From assembly GCA_029891345.1 (NCBI GenBank), contig CM056993.1, positions 224,635,924 through 224,699,923 on the forward strand: 64,000 bases of DNA, read 5' to 3'. Below are positions 2,605-55,155 of this stretch, in pieces. A program made the translations under genes and the position numbers. Position 1 is the first letter of the stretch. The number at the start of each line of letters is the position of its first letter. Under the pieces are notes generated by a model. The model saw only the letters and a list, made by a program, of their open reading frames with translations. It did no database searches and had not been told where the DNA came from. Source of the stretch: Dryococelus australis (Eukaryota; Arthropoda; Insecta; Phasmatodea; Phasmatidae).

Positions 2605-3045
2605 TCAAGTCTGTTCGTCATGAACAGACATTGCAACATCCGGACCTTCATAGAGTACCAGTCGGTCGATGTGGACAACCTTCGGCTTAGCCCGAGAGCC
2701 TTGACGATAAATCCGAAAGCCCATACCATTGATCTTCTTCAGAATCTTGCGCCTTTCCAAAATTTGTGTAGCTTTGGCAAGTACTCTTTTCGCCTCTGGG
2801 GGTTGTACAGTCAAACCATTTGTCCTTCTTGAAATACCTCGTCCAACATTCTCCTCATACTGGGTAGTCATTCTGTCACTATATGGTCGTTTATGCCTTA
2901 CAAAAAGACTAATTACTTCATTAATGGTTTGAATATATGAAGCAACTACAGAATTTCCCCATGTGTCTTCCTTAAGACCATGTCTAACAGTCTGAAAAGT
3001 GCTGGCACTTGTGGTGGATACTACAGGTTGTGGGCGGATCCCCAT
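2605..3045 (-). pseudogene. Gypsy gag-tail/integrase C-terminal fusion fragment
   Basis: A 146-codon open frame. Its C-terminal third has the layout of the Gypsy integrase tail: KKINGMGFRIYRQ followed by AKPKVVHIDRLVLYEG, matching the conserved K-V-V-H-(V/I)-D-R-L box near the end of many pol polyproteins. The N-terminal part (SYIQTINEVISLFVRHKRPY) does not look like integrase. I infer that a deletion joined a gag or spacer region directly to the end of pol, removing all the enzymes. The frame stayed open, which suggests the deletion is fairly recent or that the frame survives by chance. Confidence 0.65.
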
Positions 3046-3488
3046 CCGACGTATCCGAAGCGCTGGTAGCTCTTGTCAACTGCCTCACTCCCTTTCTTGA
3101 TCTCATGTAACTGGTTCATTGCCCCCTCCCTCCTTCCCAAGGCACTTTCTCCATGAGACAACCATCCTCAGAGCTACTACTAAGAGGAGCCATCACATCA
3201 TTCACTCCATGCCATGGGCTCCTTTCACTGTTATGTGACGCAGTGTGCGAAGGGCGTCTGGACAGCACTCGCAGGTCGTCATGTGAATTTTCCAACTGCC
3301 TTGTGAGGTGTGCAGCTTACAACATCAGCTCGTCCATGTGGTTTCTCAGTTGTTGGACATATGCACGAAATGAGTAAATTTCTTCACGCAAGTGCTTGCA
3401 TGCCCTCATTGAAGCCATTTGTTCATCTTGCTGTTTCTCTTCCGCTGCTGCTTCTGTTTATGCTCCTGCTGTTGTGAGTAATAGGCCC

Positions 3489-7773: not shown

Positions 7774-7779
7774 CTTAAA
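7774..7779. repeat. candidate left target-site duplication of the Polinton
   Basis: CTTAAA directly abuts the start of the left terminal repeat. CATAAA abuts the right one at 36127-36132. Five of six bases agree, and 6 bp is the known Polinton duplication length. Confidence 0.6.
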
Positions 7780-8008
7780 AGTAGTAGGATCGCACATGTT
7801 CTACTTCACTTTTGATTTTGGATTAACAATTTGATATAAAACTGATCGACCCTATTAATACATAATTAATCCGTTCAAAAATGGGATAATCATTAATCCA
7901 CCTTATCTTCATCCAATGACATCAGTTGGATAAAATGAGATTCATGGATTTATTTTAAAAATTAATTTTTTTTATTTTTGTAAAACAATTATTACGAATG
8001 TGTTTGTG

Positions 8009-8085
<77 letters not shown>

Positions 8086-9510
8086 TATATATATATACCC
8101 TTGGGCATCTGACATTGTATTGTATTGAGGAGTCATATGTTGGGTAAGGGGTATATATGTACTGTGTAATATTGAATAATAATATTTAGTAGAGGGCATA
8201 GAAGTTCCTCCCCTTTTGCAGTCTGGCAGATGACTGAGGGAGAGGAAGAGAGAGCAGTACCAAGATACATGCAGTGCAGCTGGTGTCTGAATGTCGTCTG
8301 ATGTTATGTGAAATGGTGGAGTTCCGAAGTGTGTATTTTATTGAAAATGAATTAGTCACAATGAATACGATTTATACTGAAATAACTTCAACAGCAGTTT
8401 CCTAACCCATCCTGTATGCTAGGAATATAATTTATAACAAACAACAGAGACTCATATGCATTGAATCAACTATGTGACATATTCACTCCTCGACAAACAG
8501 AAGATATTTATTTAATTAAATGCAAGAGAACGTAAAGGGAATATACCAAGTCCAAACAAATTACAGCCAACAGTGCCTATTTCCATGTGAAAATGAAAAC
8601 TCAAATACCGCTCTAGCAATTGTAGTGTTACAAAGAAAACAAACAAGGAGAGCCTAAATATAATTATATCTACAATGAAGCCAATAAGATAACTTACTTT
8701 CCTAGCAATCTAGGTGTTATAAATTAATGAGTTATTAAAAATGCACACATTCAAAATAGGTAAACTTACTAACAAATTGATTGAATACATTAAGTCCTAC
8801 AACACAAGATCTACGAATTGTACAACGAAGTAATTAACAAAGGTGAGTTATGAAAAATGTACAAGTCCAAATTTAATGTCACAATGCAATGAATATTATT
8901 GATCCCTGCTTACGAATGGAGCACAAATTCAGAACACAGATTTATATTTCCAATGTACGCTAATCACAATATCATTCTAGAAATGTGTCTTACAATGTAA
9001 TGTTTTAACTATTGCATATAATTTAATACAGAACGATCTACCACTAAAACATAATTACATGGAACGTTTGAAATGTTAACCTCGCACAAAGAAATATCAG
9101 CTAGTATGAGAAGATATATTAAAAATTAATAACCCAACTTTCCTCGAACTCTCGCTAGGCCAGCATCGGAATTCACACTTACAAATACTAACCAAATGGC
9201 TCAAATAAAAAATCGCACATAATATTTGAAAAAATAATAGGTTCACATATTTCTTAAATGTCTTTATGGAATTGCACTTCTTACCATATTCCAAGAACTA
9301 AGTTTTTAACTCACCCAACTGCATTCACTGGATATATTAATTAACAATGTATAAATAATATATATCGGCCTGAATTAGTTTCCCTAGTGCGAGAAGCCAA
9401 ATTAAAAATAATTTTTACACTTTATCCATTCGTAGATGAATTTCAGAAATGGAATCCAATATCAGACATTTTATAAATGTTATTAAACTATCACATTTAA
9501 TGTTATGAAG
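7780..9510 (+). repeat. left terminal inverted repeat of the Polinton
   Basis: Reverse-complement match to 34305-36126 along its length, about 75-80% identical by eye. Anchors include TTCTACTTCACTTTT, GGGTAAGGGGTATATATGTA, AGAGGGCATAGAAGTTCCTC, TTTTGCAGTCTGGCAG and CACTCCTCGACAAACAGAAG. It carries an (AT)n microsatellite (8012-8097) absent from the other copy. Similarity stops near 9510. Confidence 0.9.
8012..8097. repeat. (AT)n microsatellite inside the left TIR
   Basis: About 40 AT units. The right TIR has only a short ATATATATA run at the equivalent place, so it expanded after the repeats diverged. Confidence 0.95.
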
Positions 9511-10189
9511 AGCAGTTAATGAAAGGATAAGTATGATATATCTCTGGAGCCCTGACCTCCATCCATGTAGCACATCCAACCCCATGGAAGGTTTAGAACA
9601 ACTGGCCGAAAGGGCCGTTAGGGAAGATGCACCAACCACTCAGCTAGGCTTTGTCCTATCTCACTTGCTCTCAACCCCTCTCTCTTCATCCCCTATAGAG
9701 AGGGTCAATATTCTCCACACCTTTGTCATGTAGACAATTGAAAAATTTCACAGCATCACCTGCTAATGATTCTTCCTAGCAAATAAACTTTAAGAGATAA
9801 ATCACCCTAAAATGTATAAAATTTTCTTGTAAGCATGAATAATCACATTCCAATTTTTTTTTTTAAACTGACACAACTCTAGAAACATTATCCCATTTCT
9901 AAAAAATATAACATTAAAAGGAAACAATGCAATGGATTACTACTAAAATGGTAATCCAATGAAATGGTAATCTAATCAAATGCTAATCCAATGAAATTGT
10001 AAGCCAATCAAACACTAATGTGATGTAATGGTAAGTCAATCAAACAAGCGGAATGATTGCACAATAAGTGTAATAAATTAATACACAATAACTGTACATC
10101 CAAACCCCATCAATATTGGTAGGAATTTTCCTAAAATAACACATCAATTTGGTTTTAATGATTTATTGATTTTCATAACTGTACAAACC
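9511..10189. other. Polinton sub-terminal region with a short imperfect tandem array
   Basis: 9511-9730 is unlike the corresponding part of the right end and may be an insertion. 9945-10045 holds about six imperfect 16-18-bp units based on AAATGGTAATCCAATG. No gene seen. Confidence 0.55.
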
Positions 10190-11070
10190 TTGTCTTACAA
10201 TATTTTAAGATCTTGATTCTTCACCCATGAATCGTGTGCTTTTGAGAAACCTTTCCAGTAGACAAAGTAGGCATGTTTCCCTTTTTTAATAATTTTATCA
10301 ACTAAATATTCATTTGGAGAAGCAACTTTCTGTAATTCATGTTCACAAAACTGCCTTTAAAACATTGTCCAATATAGGTTTCGAGGTAAAATATACTAGG
10401 AAACGTCTTTATGAACGAAATAATTTCAAATATTTCGCAAATCCAACTAGTAGTGTATTTTTTCACAAAAACCGCTTTGATCTTAGAGATATGTGTGTAC
10501 TGTCCAACTTTAAACTTTTCCTTTTTATTGTCGCATACTTTAACACTATTATATGTGATTTTCATCAATATATTATCCGTAATGTTTTCGGGCCCCATCT
10601 TGATAGTTCGATGATATCTCGACTTATAAAATTGAAGTATTTCAGGTCAAACATCTACCCAATTATAAGTCCCCTTCGACGTGAAATGTTTATAAATTAG
10701 CTATTTAATGGATTTGTTGAATCTTTCGACTACTGAAGCTTTAAGTTTACAATGCATTATGTAATGATTTATCTCATATTCAGTCATTAGTTTCTGGAAA
10801 GAAATGTCAATGAACTTGGTCCCTTTATTAGTTTGAAGTGATTTAGGTGTTCTTTCTGCTATAACAGTTTTCATAGCAACTGTAACTTGTTTCCCAGTCT
10901 TGTTCTTCACAGGTTTGGCCCAAGCATATTTTGAATAAACGTATATTATGGTTAAAATTTACTCGTATCCCTTATTTTATTTCGAAAGTAATAACTCTTC
11001 TTCCGGGAAACCTTGTCCTTACAGAGGTATGAAGTTCTTGAGCAATCTTACTGGATTTCATTAGCAATAT
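10190..11070 (-). pseudogene. Polinton integrase with chromodomain (inactivated)
   Basis: Would insert the element's DNA. On the minus strand the order is as in Polinton integrases: an N-terminal segment (KIAQELHTSVRTRFPGRRVI, about 11000-11050), then part of the rve core (YSKYAWAKPVKNKTGKQV and KGTKFIDISFQKLM), KASVVERFN with the catalytic Glu, a C-terminal FKVGQYTHISK...YTTSW segment, and finally a chromodomain-like tail (AYFVYWKGFSKAHDSWV, about 10200-10310). Between the N-terminal segment and the core roughly 30 codons, including the first catalytic Asp, are missing. The second catalytic position reads NKGTKF rather than D-x-G. A one-base frameshift near 10345 separates the chromodomain from the rest. 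Confidence 0.88.
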
Positions 11071-20825: not shown

Positions 20826-23447
20826 TCGGTCATTTGAGAAACAACATAAGTCCAAAAGTACTACTTTTCAGGAATTAAAAAACACACTTTAATGCTGAAA
20901 GTTATCTATACAAAATTTTATAAATGATTACTCAACAGATATCTCAACATCCCTTTTATAATGCATACAATGAAAAGTGTTTTTGTGTTTAAATGTAAGA
21001 GGGATGTGCACTTAAAATTTTTGTCTTATGGTGTTTTAAAAGTAACAGCAGTATTTGCACCATAAAATGATACTCAGAAACAATTTGCAACATGTATATT
21101 GCTACAAAATATGCCAATAACACCTCTATGTAAAATATACCATATCATGTCCATACTAATACCTTTCCACGCCCAAATCCCATTGTAAAAGGCCGGCAAG
21201 TAATGTTCTTCTGGTTAACATGTGGATACAGTCTTACAAGAACTTCTGGTTTTTCAATCCAACATCTCATGCTCCATAGAAGAGTCTGTACGAATAGTTG
21301 GCCAACAAATAGCTCGTTGTAAAATACCTGGACATCTTCTTCATCTGGTAAAAATGGTTGAAATTTTCATTGGTCAGACTTTTTTCTCATTGATGGGGAG
21401 AAAGCCATTGGAGCGGGTCTTGGTTAGTGGAAGTTCAACAGGTGTGTTGCGCTTGTACGAAATTTGGAACGTGTTCTATATGAGGCCATCAATTAAGTCT
21501 CTGGATTGAACTGTACCTTTGTAGTCACTGGAGTGGGCGAAATGCACTAACAAAGTAATTTCCAGGGACATTTTCTGTTCTCTCAGCACACCCTTGCCAT
21601 GAGATTCTTGTCCTCTTGACCACTGCAAAATCCCTGTCACATGGGAGGAAGGAATGCCCTCTCACTGGAACGTACCGATATATCGTTTTAAACATTCTTG
21701 TTGAGACAAGGGCATTTGACAACCATAGGAGTGTGTGATTTTGATTTTGATCTCCACACCCATCCGAAAAATATGCAAGTGTTCAATGTCTCTAGTACTG
21801 TCGATCTCCTGCAAATATTGTAGCAGAAAAGTGCAAACCTCATTTGGACTCTTGGTTGCTACACCCTCATCGTACATATAAAATACAATGCTATCGTCTT
21901 CGAGATTGTGAATGTAAAATACACTCACAGTCAGCTGGTGGAGATAGAAAGTGTCTTGAATGGGTATGGTGGGCAGTTGTAAATACATCATGTACTCAAT
22001 AACTATTCCTCCTACACTCTCGTTTGATTTTGCCAATGCCCTTACTGCATCAATTTTATTAAAGAATTTTTTAGAACAGTGAAGATGGATAATTTTTTCT
22101 CCAGCATGCACTAGTTCTGCTGTGTCAGTCAGGAGCCTACTTTGTATCTTTACCATAAGTTATTCACATGTATAGCAGGTGTCGATCTGGGGACGACCAA
22201 AGGAGAGAGAGAAGTCCTCAATGAAGACTTTCAAGTAAAACTTGTAGCTAACATTGGCGTCTGTATGTGATACCTTAAATAATCTGCACATTAGTAACAC
22301 TTTAAATCACTCACTTAGGTAGTGGTATTCACATGTACTATAGCGTGCAATCTTGACTGGAAAGGAGGAAATATGCTCCTTGACTTCATTAACTACACAG
22401 TCAGGTTTTTGTTACCTGGGGTACATTTTCCTCGCCTATCCATTAGTACTTTTTCATCTATCGGTAATGCTGTTAGTCTTCGAATATGCTCACTTGTGAT
22501 TGCACGAATATAATAAATAGAAGTTTACATATCTGCATCTTGCCAGAGGGTGTTGATATGTCATACACAAATGATGCCTTTCATGACAGCTTCAATGATT
22601 CTTCTGCAGATTTCCATCTCCTTTGTTTCACTTCAGATGCATTGATTAGTGCTTGTAAATAAATGTCTTGTTCGTCTTTCGTTCGCATTTGTCGGAAGTT
22701 ACCAAACACCCATTGTCTCTGCTGAGTTGTAAATATGTCATAGCATTTCTGACGACACGTGAAACAGAAAACCATCCACCATATGTATTGTTAGGTTATG
22801 GAGGTTGTGCACTGTTACACTTTATTATAATGTTCATGTCAGTGAACTTTATTGACAACAATCATACAAAAAACACTATTTGCTTGCAGACGACCCCATG
22901 TTTCAATTCAGCACATTCCTTTCCTATATAGTTTGTATATGAGGATCCATTGATTCGAGATTTTTAATAACCTTCGATTTAAACTGTGCAATGTTGGTCA
23001 CACCTTTCCGCCGTTACTTGCTTATGACCTGTATTGTTTCAGCAACATCACACATATAGATTTTACAGACAAATAATTCTAAACCACTTCATAAACTACA
23101 CCACACATATAAATTCACAGAATAAACAAACCAGCCGTTGTTGTGATCCCATAGAGCAACGAATGTTGTAATACAAGCCATGGAGGAATATGTGCAGAAG
23201 CGACTACCTGTTTCTGATAGAAACAACACAAGTCAGTGACATGTGTATACTAGAGATACAACACAAGTGAATGAGTTATGGTGTTTCTCAAGTAAACTCA
23301 AAGCTTGGTACCTTGCTACATATCACACATAGCATCCGACTTATGTTATTTCTATATAACAACATGAATTTATCTTTGTAGAAAATGAAAACTCCCAAAC
23401 CTCATTTTTTGTGGTAAATTGACTTATGCTGTTTCTCAAATGACCGA
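20826..23447. mobile_element. 2.6-kb DNA transposon with 27-bp TIRs and TTAA-type target
   Basis: The left end is TCGGTCATTTGAGAAACAAC (20826 on), and the right end is its reverse complement; 26 of 27 terminal bases agree. The flanks are TTAA (20822-20825) and TTCA (23448-23451), a TTAA duplication with one change. It interrupts the Gypsy integrase reading exactly between the ATHK end of the core and the QKVLAKF continuation. It encodes one minus-strand protein (21230-22780). TTAA targets occur in piggyBac- and Kolobok-type elements; I cannot assign a superfamily from the protein. Confidence 0.85.
21230..22780 (-). pseudogene. DUF7869-like transposon-encoded protein
   Basis: Blocks on the minus strand in order: a Cys-rich N-terminal segment (FCFTCRQKCYDIFTTQQRQW, then LQALINASEVKQRRWK), LMDRRGKCTPGNKN, then the main domain with PTIPIQDTFYLHQLTVSVFY, FYMYDEGVATKSPNEVC, FLLQYLQEIDSTRDIEHLHI, followed after a frame change by YRYVPVRGHSFLPCDRDF and a decayed tail. 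The same layout occurs in a widespread insect protein family annotated with DUF7869, found in repeats. The usual SD-x-CGGQN box after the EHLHIF strand is replaced (RMGVEIKIK). No catalytic triad is proven for the family; a transposase role is inferred from its being the sole gene of a TIR element. Confidence 0.65.
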
Positions 23448-24250
23448 TTCACTTATGAGTCGCCTCCAACAACAAGTGATCACGCTCGGCTTCGCTCAAG
23501 GTGGCAGGAAGGGGAGAAATGTTCCAAACATTGAGAAGAGGATAGGCAAGGGCATTGCCTAAAAAGGGTAGGGAGGGAGGACACCCGGTGGACTCATGGG
23601 AAGCACTATTAAACACTACACTGATGAACTCTAAATCACGATCCCAGAGTACATGATCTTGGTTGTAAAGTATTATCAAACAGGCATTAATATTTTTATT
23701 AAACTGTTTGACCTGGTTGCGTTTGGAATAGTAGGGGCTAGAAGTAAAATATTTAATGGCCCAATGGAAACACATATCCTTAAAGATCTTGGATGTAAAG
23801 TACCTCGCATTGTCAGTTAAAATTTCAGCAGGATCACTGAATATCTTCCAAATCTGTTCAGAAAGAGCCTTAACTATAGATGATGCTTTCATGTTGCGCA
23901 AGGGAATGAGAAAAACAAACTTAAAGAAATTGTCGACTAAAATCAAAATACAAATGTTTCCTTTTTTTTACCTTATTAACGGACCAAAAATATCTAAGTG
24001 GAAGATCGACCAGGGAGCAGTGGGAATTTGAAAGGTGGAGTGTCTTACATTCATATCCTGCCCCTGTATATACCTTTGACAGGCATCACATGTATGAATA
24101 TAGTCTGCCACATCTCTTCAAGGTGGGCTGGAGAAATTTATTGAAATTGGTTCAAATATTTTATTTATCCCCAAATGACTTCCAAATACCGAGTCGTGAA
24201 AATAGGCTATAACCATAGGTCTCAATGCTATTGACACGAAAACTTTTCTA
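23448..24250 (-). pseudogene. pol: Gypsy integrase, zinc-binding and catalytic core
   Basis: The minus strand has a zinc-binding segment (DVADYIHTCDACQRYIQG), then the first catalytic Asp in FHLDIFGPL, an open 165-codon core frame with VDNFFKFVFLIPLRNMKASS, LTDNARYFTSKIFKDMC (second Asp) and SPYYSKRNQVKQFNKNINA. At the last site, where the catalytic Glu of the N-Q-V-E-R-F motif is expected, the residue is Lys. The frame ends at the transposon boundary in LLLEATHK. Confidence 0.85.
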
Positions 24251-24503
24251 CTCTCCCATTCCTACCTGTAAAGTACAGAACGTCCTTATCCAAGATACAA
24301 GGGACAACAGAACCTTTATCCACCTTGTCCGACATCTGAACGCAAAACTGATCCTGCTGCTGTGCCTGCTGCAGTTTAAAAAATAATCAGGAAAACCTTT
24401 CAAAATTGTAAGAGAGGTGGGGTACGACTCTGGTTATACTACTTCAAAATCCTCTGTGTCGTACATACGGGATAATGCATCTGCGACCTTATTTTAGGTC
24501 CCT

Positions 24504-24950
24504 TTAATGTGGTGGACTTAAAACTTCTAATGTGATAAATGCAACACCTAATGACCTAGCTTGCCCAACTTTTGGGGATGATTCAGAACCCAGCTGAGCG
24601 CCTGATTCTCGGTTATACAGGTCGCATTCTGTATGTTCCATGTACGATGCGAATTCTTCTAACCCAAAGATGAATGCAAGAGTTTCTTTTTCGTAAATCC
24701 CGAGCTTTTGTTCATTCTGAAAAAGAAGCCGACTGACAAAGGCGAAAGGTGCCAAGCCGGCATCATTAAATAGGCTCAAGAAAGCTCCTAATGCTAGAGA
24801 GGATGCATCGGGCTGAGCTACAAAACGCTTACTGAAATCTGGCAGATGTAGAACAGCAAAGGCAATCAAACAATCATTTAACTTAGCGAAAGTCACTTAC
24901 TGCACAACTTCTCATTCAGAAACTACTCCCTTCCTTTTTAGGTGGTTTAG
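24504..24950 (-). pseudogene. pol: Gypsy RNase H domain
   Basis: A 130-codon frame reads SKRFVAQPDASSLALGAFLS (first acidic residue of RNase H in D-A-S), APFAFVSRLLFQNEQKLGIY, EKETLAFIFGLEEFASYM, matching the layout of Gypsy RNase H (D-A-S ... S..L ... Y...E.E.LA...). It lies between reverse transcriptase and integrase, as in the family. Confidence 0.8.
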
Positions 24951-25128
24951 AGGATCTTCTATTTCTGAAAAATGCTTGATGAAATGGGAGTAGTACCCAA
25001 GCACGCCCAAGAATTTCTGAACCCCCTTCAAGGTCTTCGTTCAGGGAAAATTCACAATTGGGGCAATCCTATCCAGGTCCATCATCAATCAGCCTTCACA
25101 TAACACATAACCTAGAAATTTAACTCTA

Positions 25129-26026
25129 TTAGATCCTAAAGTCACTTTGTCCGGTTTGACTGTTAAGCCAACGTCTCATTTTACCCAAAACCAAACACAA
25201 GTGTTCCAAATGGGAGGCTAGATTTTCACTGTACACTACAATGTCGTCGACATAATTGAAAACCAATTTATATTTAAATTTAGATAGGGCAAAATCTAGG
25301 ACATGGGAAAGTGCTGGCTGCAAAATTCGACCCCATTGGAATTATTGTAAATTCGAATTGACTGTAGGGTATCCTGAGGGTGGTTACTTTATGGCATGAG
25401 GGATCTAACAAACATTGATGAAAACTGTTATAAAGATCTAAAGTTTTAAAAAATAATTTTGCTTTACCTAAATGCTGCAGAGTGCAGTCTATTGTAGGAA
25501 GGGGAAACATATATTTGTGTAACTTTTTATTTACCAATGAGTGGTTCACGACCAGACAGTACTTATCACTATCTTCTTTACATACAAGGAAGTCCAAAGG
25601 ACAATAGTCGGAGGTGGAAGGAACGATCACGCCTGCAGCGAACAGTTTGCAAATGATATCCCTGAAAACTTTCAACTTCGGCAGCAGGCTTTTGAAGCCA
25701 TTGTCGCGAACCGGAACATCGTCGGTAAGGGAAAAACAATAGGGCAAGACATCGAATTTCCCAATATGAAAAGAAATTACATCACTAAATTCTTCCTTTA
25801 TTTTCTGCAGTTCATTTTGGAAATTCAACTGAACCTGATTTTCCTCACAGGAAATAACCATGTAAGGAGCTTCACTAGTCAGAAGGGCAATCCGAATACT
25901 AGTGGTAAACCCAAAGGATAAATAGCCTTTATCAAAATCTACACTGGCTCTCATGTGTCCTAAAAACTCTAAGCCGAATACGATGTTATGAGAGAGGCGG
26001 GGAATTATAAAAAAAATTGATCCCAT
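25129..26026 (-). pseudogene. pol: Gypsy reverse transcriptase
   Basis: A 248-codon frame (25280-26026) followed by a frame change into 25129-25323. Motifs in order: LKVFRDIICKLFAAGVIVPS, DFLVCKEDSDKYCLVVNHSL (where Gypsy enzymes have V.DYR.LN), FPLPTIDCTLQHLGKAKLFF, TLDLYNSFHQCLLDPSCHKV (motif A, usually DL..GYHQI), FTIIPMGSNFAASTF, then YKLVFNYVDDIVVYSEN with the catalytic YVDD box and HLEHLCLVLGKMRR. The domain is nearly complete but frameshifted. Confidence 0.88.
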
Positions 26027-26149
26027 GAAAATTTTCCAATTTTAAGATGTAACTTAACCACCAAGTTAGATTGGATTATGTCGCCAGTGGCGATACATAA
26101 CTGTTTGTCCCTATGAAGAACTACATGATTACTGTGAACAATATTCAAC

Positions 26150-26240
26150 TCCTAAAGTTTATGGAAATAATGATTGAGTTATGACACATAGACATGCCGG
26201 TGTCTACCAGAGCACAATAGTTATTACCACCAATCATAAC
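26150..26240 (-). pseudogene. pol: Gypsy aspartic protease active-site region
   Basis: Minus strand YCALVDTGMSMC contains the A-L-(V/I)-D-T-G active-site motif of retroelement proteases, between the gag zinc knuckles and reverse transcriptase. The rest of the domain is frameshifted towards 26026. Confidence 0.65.
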
Positions 26241-26299
26241 GCATACCATACACTTTTCCAGTTTATGCACAGATTCAGAAGGGAAATGACCTCAGGCCC

Positions 26300-27302
26300 C
26301 TTGCTTACCCACGGTCAGAACTTGTTTCCCCATTTCGAACACCCATTTCTAAGATGGCCGACTTCACCAGAGGGAAAACACTTACGTTCTCTAACCAAGC
26401 GATGGGGAACTTTACAGTTCTTGTAAGTATGTCCATGTTAAAAACAACTGACACAACGAAGCTGTGGCTTGGAAATTGTTGTGCCAGGCTGCGACTTTTA
26501 AGCACCAAGAGTTGTGTCTACCCCTAATAAATAACCGGGGCTGGAAAGAGAAGGGGACGGAAACATGTGTTTGGTAATCTGCAGCGGCAGCCAGCTTTCC
26601 CTGCAGATTATCTGCAAAACAACATAACTCCGACAAGATAGTCGGCCTGGATTCCAAAACAAATAAAATTTTCACATGAGGGGCCAAGTTCCCCAAAATT
26701 ATGTTCATTAATTCACCTACAAAGAGCCCAACACACTAGGCATCATTATAGGCACAGACCAAATCTACAAATTCGGGTACCAATTCATTTCGTTCTTGGT
26801 ATCTGAAAACATGCTTTTATTCGCACTGTCACTTTATGGCTAATGGGAACAACACCTAAATGAAATTGCTGAAAAAGGTCTCGAAATTGTCACCAGAAGA
26901 AGAAGCTAATTCCTCACGTAAAATTTCAAGAACCTGGCACTTATACATGATTGCTCATAAGATGGTCTGCTGGGGACACAATCCCAAACTGCATATTTTG
27001 GATACAGCTATAAAAAAGGACAGGCTGCAGGCAGGATCAAGATATGTTAACACCGGGAGACACTCCAAGGAAGAATTAAAAAGCTTATCCAAACGTACAG
27101 GATAATGAGCGCGACTCATCAGCGGGATGGCTGGTTGAGAAACAGGTGACTTGGGGGCTTCTTGCCAGCACAACTGATCCATGGCCATTCACCTGATCAC
27201 TGCAACCATTGCCATATCGTCCACTTCAAACTCAAGGTCACACAGAAATGTCACAAGGTCGTGACAGGGAAACTGGTAAATAAAGCTGACACTTGATGTC
27301 AT
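26300..27302 (-). pseudogene. gag: Gypsy gag with two zinc knuckles
   Basis: The minus-strand start ATG is at 27300-27302 (MTSSVSFIYQFPCHDLVTFL). The capsid C-terminal part is readable as FRYQERNELVPEFVDLVCAY, GELMNIILGNLAPHVKIL and TILSELCCFADNLQGKLA, the usual Gag layout. Near 26320-26460 two CCHC-type knuckles lie in tandem: C-x2-C-x4-H-x4-C with an in-frame stop inside, then a second one whose second Cys is Ser. Several stops make it inactive. Confidence 0.75.
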
Positions 27303-27433
27303 GGTGAATGCATACATGAAAATAAATAAACAAGCATGAGTAGAGTGGCACAGTTTAAAAGTTCCCTTCTTCCATATAAGGGAATAATGAAACTTATATT
27401 TACAAAATACTCATATAGGTTGAGAATAAGGGA

Positions 27434-29503
27434 CGATTTTAATTACCCTTGATGTATAAGTTTACATGCACTGTTGGAACATCTAGTGATTGAAAGATAA
27501 TTTAGCAAAATTACAAATGTTGATAAACAACTTTTCACACATGTATGTATAAATTCCTGACGTAAGGTTAATATCCACAGCAAAATAAAATTGTTATTTT
27601 GCAATTTAAGTTAGATATAAATCAGCAGCTAGCCTTGACAAGTTTAAATAATGCCAATTAAATTAACACTAAAATACACAGCAACCAAACCACACATTTG
27701 CGTTCATAAAAGAGATCTACATAAAATGTCCAGCACACAAGGCTTATAATTATATTAATACAAAACGAACAATAATAAAAATATACAGCACACAAAGCTG
27801 AAAATTGTTAAGCATTAATGCCCATTAGATAAGCAGCACACAAGGCTGAAATTTATACTTGCAAAATATAAAATGCTCATTAGAGGTACAGCAAGTAAGC
27901 TGCTAATGAAATTACTTAAATACATGGTGCACAGGTCTGATATTGGTACTCGTAGGCATTCAAAATTCATGAGATATACAGCACACAAAAGCTGATAATT
28001 GAACTAACTATATCAGTGAAGACATTATTCAGGATTATCAAATTAATTCCACAAGACAATTCAAAATTATTTTAAATACTCTCCTCACTCAACCTTCACC
28101 TTGTACACAACACACTGTGTTAATTAATAGTCTGGTAAATATAATTTTATAAAGCAAGCACCACTTTTCTAATCACAATTCATTACCAAACTTCTTGTTC
28201 TCTCATGAACAGGTACAGGAACAGTAAAAGCTATGAAATGGTTTTCATCATTTAACTGCATAAAATCTAACCAATCAAAAAGTTAAGGTCAACAGCACCT
28301 GGACGAACCCTTTACAATTAAGAGATCTCCAATCACAAAGACTGCATTTGGTAAAGTGCTACACATTTAAAAGCATACCACTATAATCTCTGGGAATTAC
28401 CTAATACTCACATACTGTTGCTTATCTTCCAAAGTGCCTTAAAATGCCATGTTAGCAACACGAACTCACAGGAATGTGTAATGCTATGGATGCACATTAT
28501 TTAACCTAAATGAATTTATCACCCTTGCCTGGTGTACAACAACAATCAAGAAATATTCAAGTCGCTTAAAAATGTTTGCTATACAAACGGAACATAACAG
28601 TTTAAAGGGCGACCAAAACAGAGCAGTAAAAATTGTAACCCTAAGCAAGCAAAGTCGAATGCAACAACCTGTTACATAAGTTTAAGAAAATATCAAAAGG
28701 CAGAGCAAGAGAATCTGGCACAAGAAGCAAGATGTCAAACGGGAACTGATTTCGCAAGGCCATGTGGACAAAGCCACGATAACACTTACATGGAAAATAT
28801 GTCATTAATAAAAAGCAAGTAAGCAATACATATCTCCAGTGGTACACAGTCTTGGGTACACAGTCAAAACCCCAACTCAGCCACAGCTGCCGACAACGAG
28901 GGCCCAAGCCAAGCTGCTTATGAACTGAGCTGGAATTTTCCCAGTCCACTCCTACCATCGCTGGAAAAGTCAGCAACATTAGCAATAATCCAAATCCTTC
29001 ACTCGTGAAACAAAATTACTGAGCAAAACTAATCTGCACCAGATTCAGCATCTGTAAACATTGAACTGTCCTGAAAATATGATGTAATATACCAGCACAC
29101 TAATAGGAATAAACTATTTCAAATCCTTGCCAGACCTTACTTGTCTGAACAGGCGAGGGCATCATTATTCAAGAAGGCATTTATCCATTTAAACTCTGAG
29201 GGAAATCATTATAGAGACAAAATCTACTAAAGCCTGTAGTGAACATCTTCATACCAAGGTGAATAATGCCCAAATGATTCCAATCATAGCAACTATCAAT
29301 CACCTGAAATAAGGTAGAAGTATGCCCCCTTGACACATACCTGGCGAGGACCACATGATGCCAGAGCAGAAGAGATGAGGTGCACTTGTTGGAAGGCCGG
29401 GACAAGAGTGACAGGAGAGTTGGAGGCAGCCCAGCATGGCCAGGGGAAGGTGTGAAGGGGCAAGGGGAGAAGAAAGGAGGGGAGCGAGTTTCCCAAGGAA
29501 TGC
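27434..29503 (-). repeat. right (5') LTR, about 2.07 kb
   Basis: Partner of 17055-19941. The first roughly 56 bp of the LTR (present at 19886-19941) are absent at its right end, where similarity stops at 29503, and the 1.48-kb block at 17945-19425 is missing. It has about 430 bp (27510-27945) and about 260 bp (28843-29100) not found in the left copy. I could not identify a primer-binding site between it and gag (27303-27433). Confidence 0.75.
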
Positions 29504-31573
29504 ACAATTATTTTGTATCCCAAACAATTATTTGTTATCTATGTTTGTGAAATATCCTATACTTACTTGTGTTATGATTTTTGAAACAGCTTGTTATTTC
29601 TTCTGGAAAATGATGTATATATTTTGAAACATTCTTTATCATACATGCAACATTTGTCAATAAATATGTTTTCATTTTTATTTCTTTTGTTAGTTTATTG
29701 AGCAAATCCCTTCAAAACTGTGAAATGCATTTGTATTCCTAAGAAAGGAAAAATATTACCTTGGTAAATTTAATATCTCAACACTAATGGTGTTGCAAAC
29801 AAGTTAAAAAAAGTCTTTGGCTTCTATCAAAACAAAGAAATCTGGAGCAATTAATTTAATGATAGATGTGATCAAATTTTAAGATGTTTCAACATAAATG
29901 AATTGCGAGAAATATTTCCAAGGAAACATTGTTAGCTTAATAATTTATACTCGGTTCGAATTCGTAAACTTACGCCATTGGCAAATGTCTCAAGACATGT
30001 AAAAACCATTGCACTTAGAGTTCAACGACTCTGTCAGTGCTACCAATCCTTGTCCGGAATCACAAGATGTACAGTTTGACTTCAACAACTTTCCAGTGTT
30101 ATCAACCACAAAACTGAAGCCTCAAAGTGTGTTAGCTTGAGTCCAGTGACCCTATCCAGAAACAGTACAGCTTTATAATAAACTAGATACATCTCTCCAC
30201 ATAGCCTTTCATGAAGCAGGGCCCACAGACCACCCTGCTAATAGCAGGTCAATGACTTAACCTCTGTCCATACTAGATGGAAAACATCTTTCACTCTGTT
30301 CGCAAACTCTCTAGGACAGTCATTTGTAGGAATGTATTTTTTTAATAATTAATTAAATATAAACAATTTCCATTTTCAATTCAGTCTTAAAAGCCCTCAA
30401 CATAGTATAAAGGTTTTAATGTAATATATTAGAAGACACACACACACACAAATGGAAAAATAAGTGTATACAAACCACGAAATGTTGCAAATAAAGGCAA
30501 CTTAGCTGAAAATGTAGTAGTATTGTTTATTAAAGAGGGTTTATTCTACACATGACCTTTATGATATTTGTAAAATCTCCTAATTCAATTTTTTTGTATA
30601 TTTCACATCTTTTAGTAGTGACAACCTAGAAAGAGTTCAAACCTATGATAATTTTTCTACCAAAAATCAATAGATGAGCTTATTTTGTTTATTCAAAGAT
30701 GAATACAGTTTTAACTGTAGCAAAAACTTGGTCATATACATATACAAAATATATCTGTTCAGGTATTATGGTAATACATGTTAATATGATTAACAAAATA
30801 CATATTAGGTTAAAAATGGGAACATATTTACTTAAATTAGTTCATAAAGCATAACACATTTCTTGTATTCTATATAAGGTTTAGGGAAAGTAAAGCCCTT
30901 TTTATGTTATTTTTAAGTTTATTGTTTATTTACAGATATATTGTGGGTGATGTCTCAATGGTAGAAAACATAAAAAATTATATCTATAAATAGTAAGTAA
31001 GTGAAACCTTTCAAAAGGAACAAATAGCAAGGATTCCTTCAGGAATGTATTACCACTTCTTGAAATCCGTAGAGGTGTAGTATTGTAAAGCATGGAAGAT
31101 TTTTTATATTCATTATAATAACATGCCTTATACATCTTTTTTTCTGTAAATCCACACTATATAATATTATGTACTGTGCTAATGGTGTATGAGAACATTA
31201 TCGCATATTTTGGTGTCTAACACACTTGTTAAAACTTCTTACTTATTGACAATGAACCAACATTTTTTAGTTATTATGGAAATCAATTAGTTTCCAGTTC
31301 TTAGGGAGGAAAGGTAGTAGAGAAGTTTGTCCCAGAGGTTATGGTGAGGGGTGATTAGGGGTTGAAGTTGTTTGATAGTCGAGGATGCAGAGAGGAAAGG
31401 GGTGTCTGAAGCTCTGGATGTAGGAAGGGGGTGAGTCCCGCTTCCTGACCATATCTCAGAAAAATATAAGTTTGAAATTTCTTATAAATAGGGGTCTAGC
31501 CTCTATGCTCCTTCCACTGTTTCCAGTAGTTTTGAGTATCGATAACCTAGTGATGTTGGATTTTTGAGAATAT
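29504..31573. other. Polinton right interior, no readable gene
   Basis: AT-rich. The element's DNA polymerase would be expected about here, but I find none of its motifs (such as YGDTDS or an SLYP box) in any frame. A 69-codon minus frame at 30926-31135 is not recognised. A (CA)n run lies near 30437. Confidence 0.45.
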
Positions 31574-32339
31574 TTGGTTATAGGAATAATGAGTCAAGCT
31601 CTTGAACGGGAAATTCAAGATTTTAATTGGAATGTCTTTAACCATAACATGCCATCGTGGAATGTATTTATTGGAGATTTATTACATACTTTGGAGGAAG
31701 GCTTGCCACCTCCGATGTCTTCGACACCACCACCTATGCTGACTCCGATGCCTTCCATGCCTTCGATTACATCACCACCATCTTCAATGACTTCAACATT
31801 CCTCTGATGCCACCGCCACTGTCTCTGACGACGTTGCCACCGCCTACGATGCTGCCGCCACTGCATCTGATTAATCTCCATCACCTCCGATGCCGCCTTT
31901 TAAGCCTCCAATGACGTAAACGTCACCTGCGATGACGTCAACGCCGCCACCTCCGATGCCGCCTCCAATGCCTTCAATGACATCAATGCCACAGCCTCCA
32001 CCGCCTCCGACAACCTCGGTGCCATATCGAGCAGCCTCAACACCGCCTCCAGGAGCCTCGACGTCAGCCTTGCTGATGCCTCCAATGTTACAAGCTTTTG
32101 ACTTATCTCTGACAAAATCAGGTGCGCATTGCTTCGAAAGGCAGGAAAGGTGTTGTTATTGTAAGCCTTTAGATCTGAAAATTACGAATCTAAATAATGT
32201 AAGGGTAGAAGTGGTTGAAGATGCTTTACTGTTATTTCATGTGCTGGAGGAGTTTATCGATTTTAAATTTTTCCCTCACCACCTCCAAACATACCTTCCC
32301 CTGATCTCGTATCTCCTGAAACACCGCAACAATATCTAG
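31574..32339 (+). pseudogene. low-complexity ORF region, possible coiled-coil or fibre-like Polinton protein
   Basis: Starts with SQALEREIQDFNWNVFNHNM, then 31690-32100 becomes a GCC/GAT/TCC-rich stretch. One frame reads Pro/Met-rich (TSTPPPPMPPPMPSMTSMPQ). Another reads an Asp/Ala/Ser/Asn-rich heptad-like text (SDAASNAFNDINATASTASD, NLGAISSSLNTASRSLDVSL) with C at nearly every third position. The first frame then runs on as FERQERCCYCKPLDLKITNL to a stop at 32339. The second frame has two stops and one frame change. A trimeric fibre or stalk protein is possible; a minisatellite is the alternative. No known family recognised. Confidence 0.35.
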
Positions 32340-32519
32340 GTTTCCACCCTCTCCTTCATTCATACATGCGCCCCAGCAAATATGATACAGCTCAGTTCTA
32401 TCACCTATAACACCTGTATTACATATCGCTCCTCCAAAGTGGCGTAAATTAAGTTTAAGCCTTGCCTCTAGGCGAAAACTCTAGTGAATGTGTTAGTTTC
32501 TTCTATTACAAATTATAGG

Positions 32520-32803
32520 TTTTGGTAGATTTTAATGTTTTCTAATGTAACATGGTGTAACGTTTAATGTGTTCAGAAGAAAGTTCGTAAATTTTCTTTA
32601 TGCTTTCAGATGTAACGTGATGTAAAGTTTAAAAATTTTAATGTATTCAGAAGAAAGTTTTTAATGTTTTCAGATATAACATGATGTGCAGGTTTAAGGT
32701 TTTTAATATTTTCAGACATAACATGATGTAAAGATTAAAGTTATTAATGTTTTCAGATGTAACATGACATAAAGTTATAAATGTTTTCAGACCTAACATG
32801 AGT
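32520..32803. repeat. imperfect tandem array around a TTTTCAGATGTAACATGATG core
   Basis: Six related cores (near 32547, 32612, 32679, 32718, 32759 and 32795) with spacing that shrinks from about 65 to about 36 bp. Each has TAACATGA or a near variant followed by a GT(A/T)AAG-like text. Confidence 0.7.
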
Positions 32804-33054
32804 TATCTTTGTATGAATGCAAATGAGTAAGTGATAGTTTCAATATATATAACAATTCTACAAAGAAATTCTTTTATATAATTTTTAAGAGTTGATTGCT
32901 TATGACATAATTTTTTTTTAGAAATATAATTTAATTATCCTGAAAACTACTTCGAAAAGGTTGGGTTAGGAAAATCTAAAAGTTTTCTCAATGGCAGTGT
33001 TGGCGAGCAGCGAAACTTTTCGTCCTTCAAAGGCATTAGCCTCAAGTTAATTCA

Positions 33055-33127
33055 CAGCAGGGTAACCGCTGCCTCTATGTGAGAGATATGCAAATCTCTC
33101 ACTCGTAGGACAGCGGTCACCCCGCTG
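33055..33127. ncRNA. 73-nt long hairpin, pre-miRNA-like
   Basis: Outer arms CAGCAGGGTAACCGCTG and CAGCGGTCACCCCGCTG pair at 15 of 17 positions. Inner arms GTGAGAGAT and ATCTCTCAC pair perfectly around the loop ATGCAA, with a short weakly paired bulge between. Size and shape are like a microRNA precursor, but transcription and processing cannot be judged. It could equally be a MITE-like fold. Confidence 0.35.
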
Positions 33128-33137
33128 CCTTGTTCGA

Positions 33138-33180
33138 GAGTGTGTGTGAGAGAGAGAGAGAGTGAATGAGATAGAGAGAA
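33138..33180. repeat. (GT)n/(GA)n microsatellite
   Basis: A GTGTGTGTGAGAGAGAGAGA run directly after the hairpin. Confidence 0.85.
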
Positions 33181-33346
33181 ACATGTATATGAATTAAACT
33201 CTGACACCAATGACTTAAGATTTGTTTAAATCCATAACAGGAAAGTAATGACTTACCATTAATATTATTTGTTTACAATAAACTTGGAATACACATCATT
33301 ACCTAATATACAAGTATAAAGTTCACCAAGATTGTATTATGTTTTC

Positions 33347-33706
33347 TTATATGATGGTGTATCCAAAAATCTTGGGTGGAAGCTTTATAAAATCATACTT
33401 TATTCTCATGTACATAAAACTTTGTATTCTAAAATTTGGCCTTTTAGAAAAAATGACATGCATACAAAAATATGTTTTGTTTTCTCGGCTATAAACAAAT
33501 ATTAATATTTGAACAAAATTGTACACACGTTTGTTTAACGTGTCTCCCATTGTATCAATGCTGTTTGGCAAATATACATGACTTATATAACAAAATGCGA
33601 CTATAACTTTTTCTCCATTTGACGGTATGTAATGCAGAACTCTTTGCTGGTTGGTAAACAGTTTTTGAATATTACTTTTTAATGATATAGTAATTAAACA
33701 TTTCAA
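33347..33706 (-). CDS. unidentified 119-codon ORF in the Polinton right arm
   Basis: An uninterrupted frame starting MKCLITISLKSNIQKLF and ending in KLPPKIFGYTII, with a basic, aromatic-rich composition. No motif recognised. It lies between the hairpin and the right TIR. In a sequence this AT-rich such a length can occur by chance. Confidence 0.25.
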   Translation of the reverse strand: MKCLITISLKSNIQKLFTNQQRVLHYIPSNGEKVIVAFCYISHVYLPNSIDTMGDTLNKRVYNFVQILIFVYSRENKTYFCMHVIFSKRPNFRIQSFMYMRIKYDFIKLPPKIFGYTII

Positions 33707-34304
33707 ATAGCTGACATATACTTAAAACTTAATGTACACGTCTGGACAACAGGGTCTTGGGAGGCGATTAGTGTGAGCAGCGAATCTCTTAATATTATAT
33801 CAAAAGTAGCTGTTAAGTTTGTCGATGTATTTTCCAAAATTGTACCGCTTTAAGCAATTCGTGATGTGATTTATTATATTTCTTTGCTTGTTATGATACA
33901 TTTCCTGGAAACTGGATATAGTTTTGCAGATTAAAATTTATTTTGGACTTAATTTCTTGGAAATGGGATATAATTTCGTGGAACTTTGTGGATAAAAGGC
34001 GTTTGGGACTTCATTATTAGTCTTGAGGAAATACTATTTTTTGGTGGGAATTGTTAAAATATATTCATTGACAGCAAGCATTCAAATACAGGTGAGACTG
34101 TGGGCCGGCGAAGTTTTTGGAGTGGTTCCCGTTACAAAGGACATCTCTGCTAGCATCTTGGTTCGGACAAACAATGACGAGGGTAGAGGGAGGGAATGGC
34201 TGGTGGGATCTTCCAAGCCCGTCTGCTCGCCTGCACCCTAGCGAAGCCATGTTAGTTTCTCAAAAACCTCACTCTGTACACATGGATACCTGCTCCTACC
34301 GTTT
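33707..34304. other. sub-terminal Polinton region
   Basis: 34045-34305 is GC-richer and unlike the corresponding left-end segment (9511-9730). No gene recognised. Confidence 0.4.
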
Positions 34305-36126
34305 GTAACATTAAATGCGATAGTTTAATAACCTTTTATAAAACATCTGATACCGAAATATGTGTTTGTGAATTCCGTTTCTGAAATTCATCTACAATTG
34401 TATACAGTATTAAATTTATTTTTAATATGTGTTTTCATGCTAAAGAAACTTATTCAGACCAATTTACTACGTTTGTGAGTCGTTAATTTATATATCCAGG
34501 GAATGCGATTATGTGAGTTACTAATTCAATTCTTGGAATACAGTAAGAAGTGCGATTCCATAAAAATATTTAATGTGTATGTGCGTCTATTATATTTTTA
34601 ATAATGTGTGCGGTTTTTTATTCTAGCAGTTCAGCTAGTATTTGTACAAGTGAATTCCAGAGCTGGCCTCGTGAGTGTTCGATGGAAGTTGTGTTAAAAT
34701 TATTTCCTAATACATCTTCTCATGCTAGGGTAAAATATATGGAGTGGTAAACTACGTTTGGGGATATATTGTTTGTGATACGAGTGATTAATAATTTTCA
34801 AAAATTAATTTTTTCTAGGGAATGCCTAGAAATGGGGTATGGTGTTCGTTTCCTGTGCTTGTTTGCATGATCGATTTTATAGCTGATATTTCTGTGTTTC
34901 TGTGTTTGGTAGATCATTCCATGTTAAATTATATGTGATAGTTAAAATGTTACATTGTAAGGCATGTGTCTAGAATGTTATTGTAATTAACTTTCATTGG
35001 AAATATAAATCGGTGTTTTGAATTTTGTGCTCCATTAGTAAGCAAGGAGAAATAATTTTCATTGCATTGTGACCTTCAATTTGAACTTGTGCGTTTTTCA
35101 TAACACACATTTGTTTACTACTTTGTTGTAGAATACATCGTTCTTATGTTATAGAACTTTATGAATTCTATCAGTTTGTTAGTAAGTTTATCTATTTGAA
35201 TGTGTGCACTTTTAATAACTCTTTGATTTATAGCACCTAGTTTGGTATGGAAGTATGATACCTTTGTGGCTTTGTTGTAGATATATTTCTATTAAGTCGT
35301 TCCTTCTTTGTTTTCTTTATAACACCACGATTGCTAGGGCAGTAATTGAGTTTTCATTTTCACGTGGAAATAGGCTCTGTTAGTGGTAATTTGTCTGCAC
35401 TTGGCACAATTACTTTATTTTCTCTTGTGTTTGATTAATTAAATATCTTCTGTTTGTCGAGGAGTGACTATGTCATGTAGTTGTTTCGTTGCATTCGAGT
35501 CTCTGTTATTTGTCATAAATTTTATTCCTAGCAGACAGGAAAAGTTAGTAACCTCCTTTGTGGATTTTAGTATAAATCGTATTCACTTTGTCTAATTATT
35601 TTACAATAAAATACGCATTTCTGAACTCCGCCATTTCGCATATCCTCAGTCGACATTCAGACACTAGCTGCACTGCAGTATCTTGGTGCTGCTCTCTCTT
35701 CCTCTCCCTCAGTCACCTGCCAGACTGCAAAAGGAGAGGAACTTCTATGCCCTCTTCTCAAAACCATTAGTAAATATTACACCATACATATATACCCCTT
35801 ACCCAACATATCACACCTCAGAACGCCAAATGTACAAGGGTGAACATCGATGCTGCCACTCTCCAACAAAACAAATAAAGTACCCTTATAACACATACCA
35901 AATATATATACGATCACACAAAAAAATTTAATAATTAAAAAAAAATATTTAAAAATAATTTTTTAATTACTCAATTGGTAAATTTCATCCAATTAACTTC
36001 ATCGGATTAACGATTATCCTAATTTTGATTGCATTAATTACCGGATTAATTGGGTCAATCAATTTGATATTAAATCGATACTCCGATTGATAAAAAGTGA
36101 AGTAGAACCCGTTCGCCTCTACTACT
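34305..36126 (-). repeat. right terminal inverted repeat of the Polinton
   Basis: Reverse complement of 7780-9510 throughout. It ends GCCTCTACTACT at 36126, and CATAAA (36127-36132) follows as the candidate target duplication. It lacks the (AT)n expansion of the left copy. Confidence 0.9.
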
Positions 36127-36132
36127 CATAAA
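36127..36132. repeat. candidate right target-site duplication of the Polinton
   Basis: CATAAA, matching CTTAAA at 7774-7779 in five of six bases. Confidence 0.6.
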
Positions 36133-49241: not shown

Positions 49242-49895
49242 CTCTTGACCCCGCGGCGGCTGGTGTCAGGCCTGGCTTCTCGACCCCGCAGCGGCTGGCA
49301 TCAGGTCTGGCTACTTGACCCCGTGGCGGCTGGCATTAAGCCTGGCTACTTGACCCCGCGGTGGCTGGCATCAGGCCTGGCTGCTTGACCCCGCGACGGC
49401 TGACATCAGGCTTGGCTACTTGACCCCTCGGCGGCTGGCATCAGGCCTGGCTACTTGACCCCGCGGCGGCTGGCATCAGGCCTGGCTTCTTGACCCCGTG
49501 GCGGCTGGCATTAAGCCTGGCTACTTGATCCTGCGGCCGCTGGCATCAGGCCTGGCTTCTCGACCCCGCGACGGCTGGCATCAGGCCTGGCGTCTCGACC
49601 CCGCGGCAGCTGGCATCAAGCCTGGCTACTTGACCCCGCGGTGGCTGGCATCAGGCCTAGCTTCTTGACCCCGAGGCGGCTGGCATCAGGCCTGGCTACT
49701 TGACCCCGCGGCGGATGGCATCAGGCCCGGCTACTTGACCCCGCGGTGGCCGCTGACATTAGGCCTGGCTATTTGACCCCGTGGCGGCTGGCATCAGGCC
49801 TGCCTACTTGACCCCACGGCAGCTAGCATCAAGCCTAGCTTCTTGACCCCGCGGCGGCGGATGGCGTCAGGCCTGACTTCTTGACCCCGCGGCGC
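49242..49895. repeat. GC-rich 35-bp minisatellite, about 18 copies
   Basis: Unit CTTGACCCCGCGGCGGCTGG plus CATCAGGCCTGGCTA, repeated head to tail with exact 35-bp spacing for most of its length and a few length variants near 49750 and 49860. Copies differ at scattered positions, mostly C/T or G/A at the CpG-rich core CCGCGGCGG. The stop TGA inside the unit and a length not divisible by three argue against coding. Confidence 0.97.
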
Positions 49896-51403: not shown

Positions 51404-54249
51404 TTTCATTCAGTGTAGAAAAATCCTATACGAAAGGTTATTTAGCTAAGATATTCGCCCCAAATAGCTCAGAAACTGCTGCAGGTAACGGTATTTGGAT
51501 TTCGAATTCGTAAATGGCACTATACGGGGCTCATAGGACACGGTTTGTGTTTGTTCAGAGACGTAGTTAATTACTAAGAGAATTATATCAACTTTTTTAA
51601 CAGTAAGAATATATACATTTCTCCTAATATATTATTAAGCTGTGAGATTAGTGATATGATCACTTTGAAATCCCGACTGCATCGACTTCTGTCTCCATGA
51701 TGTGGGTTATCCAACGCCATGCTAAGTACATCCTGCAAGTATTGGTCCCCTGCAATACATGCTTGGTGTGCCTGTACAGTATACTGATGTTTTCTGTATA
51801 CATTCTGCCTTGTCCTGTGCCTGTATTTACATACATTCTCCTGCGAAGGCACCTCAAATGTGATCAATTTCTTTGCAGATGAGTGAATTTGAACTAGCTT
51901 GATGGTTACCGCCCTTTTATTTCATTTCGTACTTTGCAAAGGCTCGTCTCCGAAGGTAAGTCAGGAACACAGTACTGGAAACACCGCGTATGTGCCGAAC
52001 CAGTAATCGGCTCTGACATGTCAGCACCTCGGCTTGTCAGCATCCAGGGGCTCCCAGATCTATACGTCGGTTAGCCAATGTAAAGACTTGAGATCAATTA
52101 ATATGTCTTAATACCGACGTCAATTTAATGAAAATGTTGCTGTAAAATCGTTATAAAATTTACTAAACATTTAAATTTAGATCTCTTTTCGTATATTGGA
52201 TAGAACAATAAGAAATATTCAAAACGTGTGTCATCCGAAATGTATTCGGCCGTGCGCGAGTAAGACACGCGACATAGGATAGCCAGCTGCCTTGTCACTG
52301 TAGATCCATACTTGTGTCAGTAAGGACAGTTAGTTGTGGCAGTACAAAGCTTAAGCAAGATGGATTGAAAAAGCAAGGAAACAACACAAGAGAAAAATTT
52401 CCGTCAGTTTGAAGCAGGCAAATCTTATTAAAAAAGGTGATATCATCTGTAGGCCATTCAAGGAGTAGTAGGGAAATGGGGGTCTTTGGAAAGGGGATCG
52501 GATTCGGATTCACTGGCCGCCATGTTGTTAAGTCACCCTTCCGCAATCTTGCTCCATGTTTTATAATATTGTGCTTATATTTTCTGAGAGACAATAGAAT
52601 TTTTAATTCGGAAAAATTACTTTAATTATGTTTTCCTTGTGCGTAGGCTTTATAGGTATGACGAGTGTTTCTCATCGACATGTCCCCGCCAGTATTACCG
52701 GAGTTACTACCAAGTGTCGAACCTGGACCCTCCTTATGTTATGTCTCATATTGTAGGGTGACGTGTATAATGTTTTGCATCGGTATGATGTGTGTTATGC
52801 CTCTCCAGTACTGTACCGTGTAAAATTTTTCTTAAATGAGTTTTTTTGGTCGTTCTGTACTTCTTCTCATTTGTTTGTGATTTCTCCCCAGTACTGTACA
52901 ATATTTTCTCTCATTGTTATTGTTCCAGAGATTTTTATAAGTGTTGTACTGCGTATTTTCCGTTTGTCTAATCATGTTTTTTTTTTGCTACTGTACGTTG
53001 TGTCTGAGAGGTGCACAAGGGGTCGATTGTGGACCTTACTTATTCCCGACTGGGGACTAAGGTTCCTCGACGTATTATATGATACATGAATATGCAGTCG
53101 CTGTCTGTTGGATCTCTACATATGTATTTTGCAAGTTTTGTTTCACATGTGAAATACTCAAGCCTTGATAGCTGTCTATGGAACATAGTTCTCTCTTCGG
53201 CAGCCGGTACGTCGGGTGACTGGCCGCTGCAGGTTGCAAGTGTACTTCCGTTCCGGTGTTCTGCGAAAATTGCCGACGTTGAGAATACCCCCTGCCGTCC
53301 AAGTCTAGAGACGACAATTACAGCAGCCTGCTTTCAGATGCACGCGCTTCCTTATTTAAAAAAAAAAAATTAATTATGTTCCTACATGTAATATATGTTT
53401 GTGGTGGTTAGAGTGCATATATATATATGTATATATTACTTCAAAATGTAACCACACCAAGTATTTTGATCGTTACCAACAGTGTTTTATTGACACTGGC
53501 ATAAAATTTTTTTTAAAATTTGTTAAAGATGATACAAAAAAATTTTTGTTTCTTTTCCGACAGTAGGTTTTTAAACATCAATATAAAACATTTTAAAATG
53601 TCAACCGTGATATGTGTTGGCCATGAATTACGATAAATTTTTTTTAAACACATTGATATACTTTGTTCTGTTTATACAAAGCTTCTTTCCCGAGTCTCTG
53701 GGTTTATTGCATACCTGCAATGTTTTTTTCGTCATAAACTTTTTTTACACGTGCCATGGATTATCAAAGCTTTAGGCCTTGGGTATTGCACGACGCGCAG
53801 AAATATCTTCTATTCTGCACTCTGTAGTCTCGTGATGTACGTCTCGACCAGCTGCCTGAACAGCGTTTAGCCACGATACCTGTACAAGTCCATTATGTTT
53901 GTTGTGGCAGGGGACGTACAAAGTACGCTCTTGGCGAATAACGTCCAAAGGCTATCGGATAATTATAGCTTCCTCCAACACTTTGAGAATGTCGCCACAC
54001 GGGAATATTTCCATCGTTCCACCTAAGTCCGTGCATCTGTAGGAGGTATACCTGTTGCGTGATGTTGTCGAGATACTGCCATTGGCATGGTGGTAAAATG
54101 TAAACACTTCGGTTTGCTCGTAGCCGTCGCTTTACAAAATGACAATCTGCTTGATGGTGTGAGAGTCCAGCGCGCGAAACCCTTGGATGTTGCTAGACAT
54201 TTTTTCACAGACACTAAGCAATTTTACCCAGTGTAAAGGTAGTCTGCAT
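51404..54249. other. intergenic stretch, no feature seen
   Basis: Several 60-108-codon frames (for example 52295-52594 and 52763-53089) without motifs. CCAGTACTGTAC occurs twice, near 52806 and 52888. Confidence 0.4.
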
Positions 54250-55150: not shown

Positions 55151-55155
55151 TCCCC

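Follow-up and report, generated by a model that had tools for sequence, protein, structure and literature searches.

What kind of element lies between the long inverted repeats in a 64-kb stretch of the Dryococelus australis genome (contig CM056993.1, positions 224,635,924 to 224,699,923; the whole stretch is called the window, and its own coordinates are used throughout), and what has become of it since it arrived? A preliminary description had read the locus as a boundary-complete, Polinton/adintovirus-like endogenised virus. Our analysis points to a decayed Polinton/Maverick-type element of about 15.8 kb, which integrated here and was later split by a long terminal repeat (LTR) retroelement, and we put the probability of this reading at roughly 0.88.

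The element spans 28,347 bp (7780-36126) and carries inverted repeats at both ends. The left terminal inverted repeat (TIR) occupies 7780-9505 on the plus strand (1,726 bp) and the right TIR 34306-36126 on the minus strand (1,821 bp), as delimited by blastn and global alignment, with Tandem Repeats Finder (TRF) used in addition on the left. Two collinear blastn blocks are seen: 7780-9043 pairs with 36126-34907 at 77.5% identity over 1,268 columns (E 0.0), and 9101-9505 pairs with 34728-34306 at 74.3% over 424 columns (E 1.8e-73). Between the blocks, 57 bp on the left and 178 bp on the right are left unaligned by blastn. As a null control, the right arm was reversed without complementing, and the best match fell to 28 bits, against 977 bits for the true arm pair. 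The alignment of the left arm with the reverse complement of the right, which had been proposed as a check, is therefore significant, and the inverted ends of 1.75 kb claimed in the preliminary description are real. A (TA)n expansion at 8013-8097 in the left arm has no counterpart seen in the right arm (TRF, global alignment). Arm identity reaches 87-90% at 8140-8380, with the other 120-bp steps at 60-87% except for 91% in the final 46 columns, a pattern that may be chance.

The termini point to the family. The left arm starts with AGTAGTAG at 7780, and the right arm terminates with CTACTACT, finishing at 36126. Polintons and Mavericks are recognised by terminal inverted repeats and by the end motif (AGT)2//(ACT)2 or (AG)3//(CT)3; both features are present here, the motif as AGTAGT from 7780 and ACTACT to 36126. 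The (AGT)2//(ACT)2 form is reported as the most frequent Maverick terminal motif (PMC8097293). Immediately outside the arms lie two 6-mers, CTTAAA at 7774-7779 and CATAAA at 36127-36132, which had been put forward as a candidate target-site duplication. They do flank the TIRs, but the match is imperfect: five of six positions agree, with p = 0.0073 for random 6-mer pairs drawn from the flanks, which is modest evidence alone. When duplication lengths of 4 to 10 were compared, 6 gave the best fit.

The inverted-repeat ends of the 28.3-kb element claimed earlier stand, but 12.5 kb of its interior is a nested LTR retroelement that the preliminary description had overlooked. Direct repeats at 16993-19885 and 27372-29502 (spans of 2.9 and 2.1 kb, with indels) are 77-91% identical. 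They enclose minus-strand Pfam matches to RT_RNaseH_2 (24507-24896, 8e-17), to rve (23452-23967, 7.3e-11) and, below the cut-off, to RVT_1 (25283-26041, 0.01). These direct repeats, together with the RNase H, integrase and weak reverse transcriptase (RT) matches, identify the insert as an LTR retroelement, about 12.5 kb long, on the minus strand at 16993-29502, the outer ends being approximate; no clear target duplication was seen at those ends. In this part of the locus (18.6-26.8 kb), chosen pieces only were given to Pfam. Further minus-strand pieces lie within the retroelement at 21148-22159; among them, 21528-21782 weakly matches DUF7869 (9.3e-4, under the cut-off) and a 165-amino-acid piece has no Pfam match. 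Subtracting the insert of 12,510 bp from the element leaves 15,837 bp. A net length of 15.8 kb is an ordinary Polinton size, as evidenced by the 12,723-24,620 bp (mean 16,862) reported for intact vertebrate Mavericks (PMC8097293).

The recognised Polinton genes lie in the block to the left of this insert. Stop-to-stop pieces were submitted singly to Pfam; of 76 pieces of at least 42 amino acids between 9.5 and 18.6 kb, 58 were covered, the 18 others being mostly the opposite strand or another frame of covered stretches. Inward of the left arm, a chromodomain is found on the minus strand at 10198-10356 (Chromo, 2e-6, 28 bits, cut-off 25.1), downstream of an integrase core at 10704-10958 on the same strand (rve, 5e-6, 27.1 bits, below the cut-off of 32.6). 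The chromodomain is in a different frame from the core and probably represents the C terminus of the integrase. With Chromo over its cut-off and the core alone under it, we judge the rve integrase of Polintons and Mavericks to be represented, and likewise the rve integrase with C-terminal chromodomain of Adintoviridae, in two pieces in different frames. On the plus strand, a parvovirus-type phospholipase A2 (PLA2) domain lies at 13327-13524 (Phospholip_A2_4, 2.7e-9, 37.6 bits, cut-off 23.9). It is followed by a double-jelly-roll major capsid gene at 15041-16140, whose start was placed by eye; 15041-15265 itself has no Pfam match. The capsid family PF21738 is matched in 15350-15508 (3.7e-8, model positions 66-99), 15564-15806 (4.2e-11, positions 127-203) and 15742-16140 (3.7e-8, positions 232-315). 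The three pieces are collinear on the model and are therefore read as one broken gene, and since the match is split over three frames, that gene is dead. The integrase is accordingly on the minus strand with PLA2 and capsid on the plus strand, these Pfam matches falling within 10.2-16.1 kb, and no intact gene is now recognised in the element.

The preliminary description had listed nearly the whole virion gene set plus an integrase. PLA2, the major capsid and the chromodomain are above their Pfam cut-offs and rve is below, but the packaging ATPase, the penton and the protease were assigned by eye alone, and none of the three has Pfam support in the scanned pieces. The ATPase is probable: minus-strand pieces in different frames at 12613-13265 resemble the packaging ATPase family, with a P-loop-like ..GKS in the piece 13032-13265. 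Pfam gives no family for 12613-12912 and only UL42 at 0.13 for 13032-13265. On the plus strand, a possible penton (minor capsid) remnant at about 14470-14787 and a possible maturation protease remnant at about 16127-16565 are likewise assigned from family features. No penton-like family is listed by Pfam among the pieces scanned for this region, and for the protease, 16127-16441 returns no family, while 16413-16565 belongs to a scanned set whose table names no members. A stop-free piece of 120 amino acids on the minus strand (11051-11410) has no Pfam match and no relatives were found for it; presumably it could be a Polinton accessory gene. Weak lines in a scan of 50 pieces named 13 families in one piece each (best E 0.0042, FAM117; Late_protein_L1 0.077, Peptidase_C107 0.12) and were taken as chance.

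To the right of the retroelement, no gene is recognised by Pfam or motif scan in the right interior (29503-34305). Between 26.8 and 34.4 kb, 68 of 75 pieces were given to Pfam (the 7 left out being mostly the opposite strand or another frame of covered stretches), and no Polinton-like family was returned; 11 families with one piece each, best E 0.015, were taken as chance. A family B DNA polymerase (PolB) was not found in the pieces of at least 42 amino acids scanned on the two sides (58 of 76 and 68 of 75). A scan for polymerase motifs from 9.0 to 34.5 kb picked up a single motif-C-like string, which lies within the retroelement, and none in the right interior. Proline/methionine-rich repetitive reading frames (31568-32339) and a 41-bp tandem repeat (32654-32787) were observed in the right interior. 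The empty right side and the missing polymerase would suit a composite, in which a Polinton fragment (the left block) and unrelated repeats lie between the arms of another large inverted-repeat transposon. However, going inward from the left arm, the first gene to be recognised is the integrase, both termini bear the Maverick motif known from the literature, the 6-mers on either side differ at a single position and the length without the insert fits a Polinton; we regard such a composite as decidedly unlikely.

Among known elements, the locus comes closest to Polintons/Mavericks. It shares with them TIRs ended by (AGT)2//(ACT)2, near-matching 6-bp flanks, an rve integrase with chromodomain, a double-jelly-roll capsid, the net length of 15.8 kb and genes on both strands, and differs in that the polymerase was not found. 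In vertebrate Mavericks, the integrase is described as belonging to the capsid-gene module and the ATPase to that of the polymerase (PMC8097293); here, in contrast, the integrase is on the strand opposite the capsid and adjoins, by eye, the ATPase-like pieces. For insect Polinton fragments, a figure of genome maps, Tribolium and pea aphid among them, names PLA2 in its key, the legend being silent on which map bears it (PMC3671162); this likeness, a parvovirus-type PLA2 among Polinton genes, comes from the figure legend and not from a sequence comparison.

Adintoviruses are characterised by a PolB with an N-terminal OTU-like domain, by an rve integrase carrying a chromodomain at its C terminus and by a jelly-roll capsid (PMC11071296). 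The latter two are features of this locus, and would be expected if it descended from a virus with an OTU-bearing PolB that had infected this lineage and become integrated, and not from a transposon already resident in it. The defining PolB was not found, however, what is present is a decayed integrated copy only, and nothing here tells infection from transposition; we consider a strict endogenised adintovirus highly improbable. Of the Polinton/adintovirus-like virus claimed earlier, a degraded endogenous Polinton/Maverick-type element is therefore well supported and the chromodomain integrase fits an adintovirus, but the polymerase that defines adintoviruses is missing from the pieces scanned.

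The arms, at 1.73-1.82 kb, are longer than the TIRs of intact vertebrate Mavericks, for which a range of 46-1,447 bp and a mean of 402 are reported (PMC8097293). To this extent the claim that they are unusually long holds, but complete polinton-like viruses and virophages are described with TIRs of "hundred-to-thousands base pair" (PMC12220804). Our literature search, judged by titles and the openings of abstracts, found no survey of TIR lengths in arthropod Polintons. Long TIRs are the sole mildly unusual point of the locus. A Polinton lineage with unusually long TIRs of 1.7-1.8 kb, possibly lacking its own polymerase and replicated via another element, is very unlikely in our estimate; decay of the polymerase after insertion and its original absence are indistinguishable here.

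The divergence of the two sets of repeats provides an order of events. The Kimura two-parameter (K2P) divergence of the TIRs, calculated from the two blastn blocks that score more than 200 bits, is 0.233, with a block-bootstrap interval of 0.193-0.276; leaving out the TA tract lowers it to 0.216 (0.184-0.248). For the LTRs, with all four blocks listed, it is 0.180 (0.152-0.207). Global alignment of the arms gives a divergence of 0.266, the blastn-based values omitting unalignable parts. The LTRs are less diverged than the TIRs, which fits the order that nesting requires, with overlapping intervals. Taking 3e-9 per site and year as the neutral rate, a TIR divergence of 0.216 would correspond to about 36 million years, an illustration only, as the host rate may differ and the estimate presumes arms that were identical at insertion.

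Several observations weigh against a decayed Polinton. The duplication is imperfect, the integrase core is under its Pfam cut-off, no protease is recovered by Pfam and no protein-primed polymerase was detected. The 4.8-kb right interior is without an assigned gene, so the TIR is the only tie of the right side to the element. In addition, AGTAGTAG and CTACTACT also bound a second, unrelated inverted pair at 52464-55185 (about 100 columns at 76%, 2.7 kb apart), which means that the motif is not diagnostic by itself. Finally, the collections searched yielded no relative, though absence from the protein set means little. Five scans with protein pieces confirmed no relative among viral contigs. When the integrase core and a piece of the capsid were compared with phages by tblastn, there was no match, and searches of the protein set with the 120-amino-acid reading frame and one capsid piece found none. 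A control RT piece from the retroelement was also unmatched in the protein set, which therefore lends its negatives little weight; the set may be poor in animal transposon proteins. Neither the PLA2 piece nor one of the capsid pieces found a match in sequence searches of the PDB, and single-sequence AlphaFold models of a capsid piece and the 120-amino-acid reading frame had a mean pLDDT (predicted local distance difference test) of about 38. One contig matched a degenerate DNA pattern derived from the ATPase-like piece; its reading frames look phage-like by eye, and it was rejected as chance.

The history of the decayed Polinton would then run as follows. Integration was probably carried out by its own chromodomain-bearing rve integrase, whose remnants are present, and would have left the 6-bp target duplication. 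While alive, the element would, by analogy with its family, have replicated by protein priming from the inverted-repeat ends, through a polymerase not found here, and had its DNA packed by an ATPase inside a double-jelly-roll capsid; PLA2 may have aided membrane passage as in parvoviruses. Decay would have followed, the LTR retroelement landing inside and the remainder gaining stops and frameshifts.

Elsewhere in the window, the possibility that the pair at 52464-55185 is a further Polinton was rejected: its flanking 6-mers agree at one of six positions, blastn against the first element is no better than E 0.24, and there is no clear similarity beyond the first bases. Eight pieces from it gave no Pfam match. 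A lone CTACTACT occurs at 3174. A DDE_Tnp_4 transposase remnant at 62159-62635 is above the Pfam cut-off (3.6e-8), and we take it to be of Harbinger type. An integrase p58 C-terminal-like piece at 2608-3075 (3.4e-5, below cut-off) is probably another retroelement remnant, and self-comparison of the window reveals a tandem array at 49244-49894 whose period is close to 35 bp. Neither Rfam at gathering scores nor ARAGORN run with the bacterial code returned anything in the window.

The earlier suggestion that long-dead arthropod Polintons with intact boundaries are rarely described is weak. Among mapped vertebrate Mavericks, 1,345 have recognisable TIRs, perfect or imperfect, and 2,166 do not (PMC8097293); 453 adintovirus-integrase insertions are reported from Ixodes ticks (PMC10675110) and 12 intact Mavericks from insect genomes (PMC10328495). 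By these counts, a decayed Polinton with its ends is not rare in general, and Polintons in a degraded state are well documented. In favour of the suggestion, a remark in the tick paper states that a comparable arthropod-wide analysis has not yet been conducted (PMC10675110). The element leaves knowledge of Polintons unchanged, its kind being already well known. The locus does help to annotate the host genome and extends what is recorded of TIR lengths in Polintons by a long-armed example. It also carries two clocks side by side, one in the Polinton arms and one in the LTRs of the nested retroelement, with divergences in the expected order.

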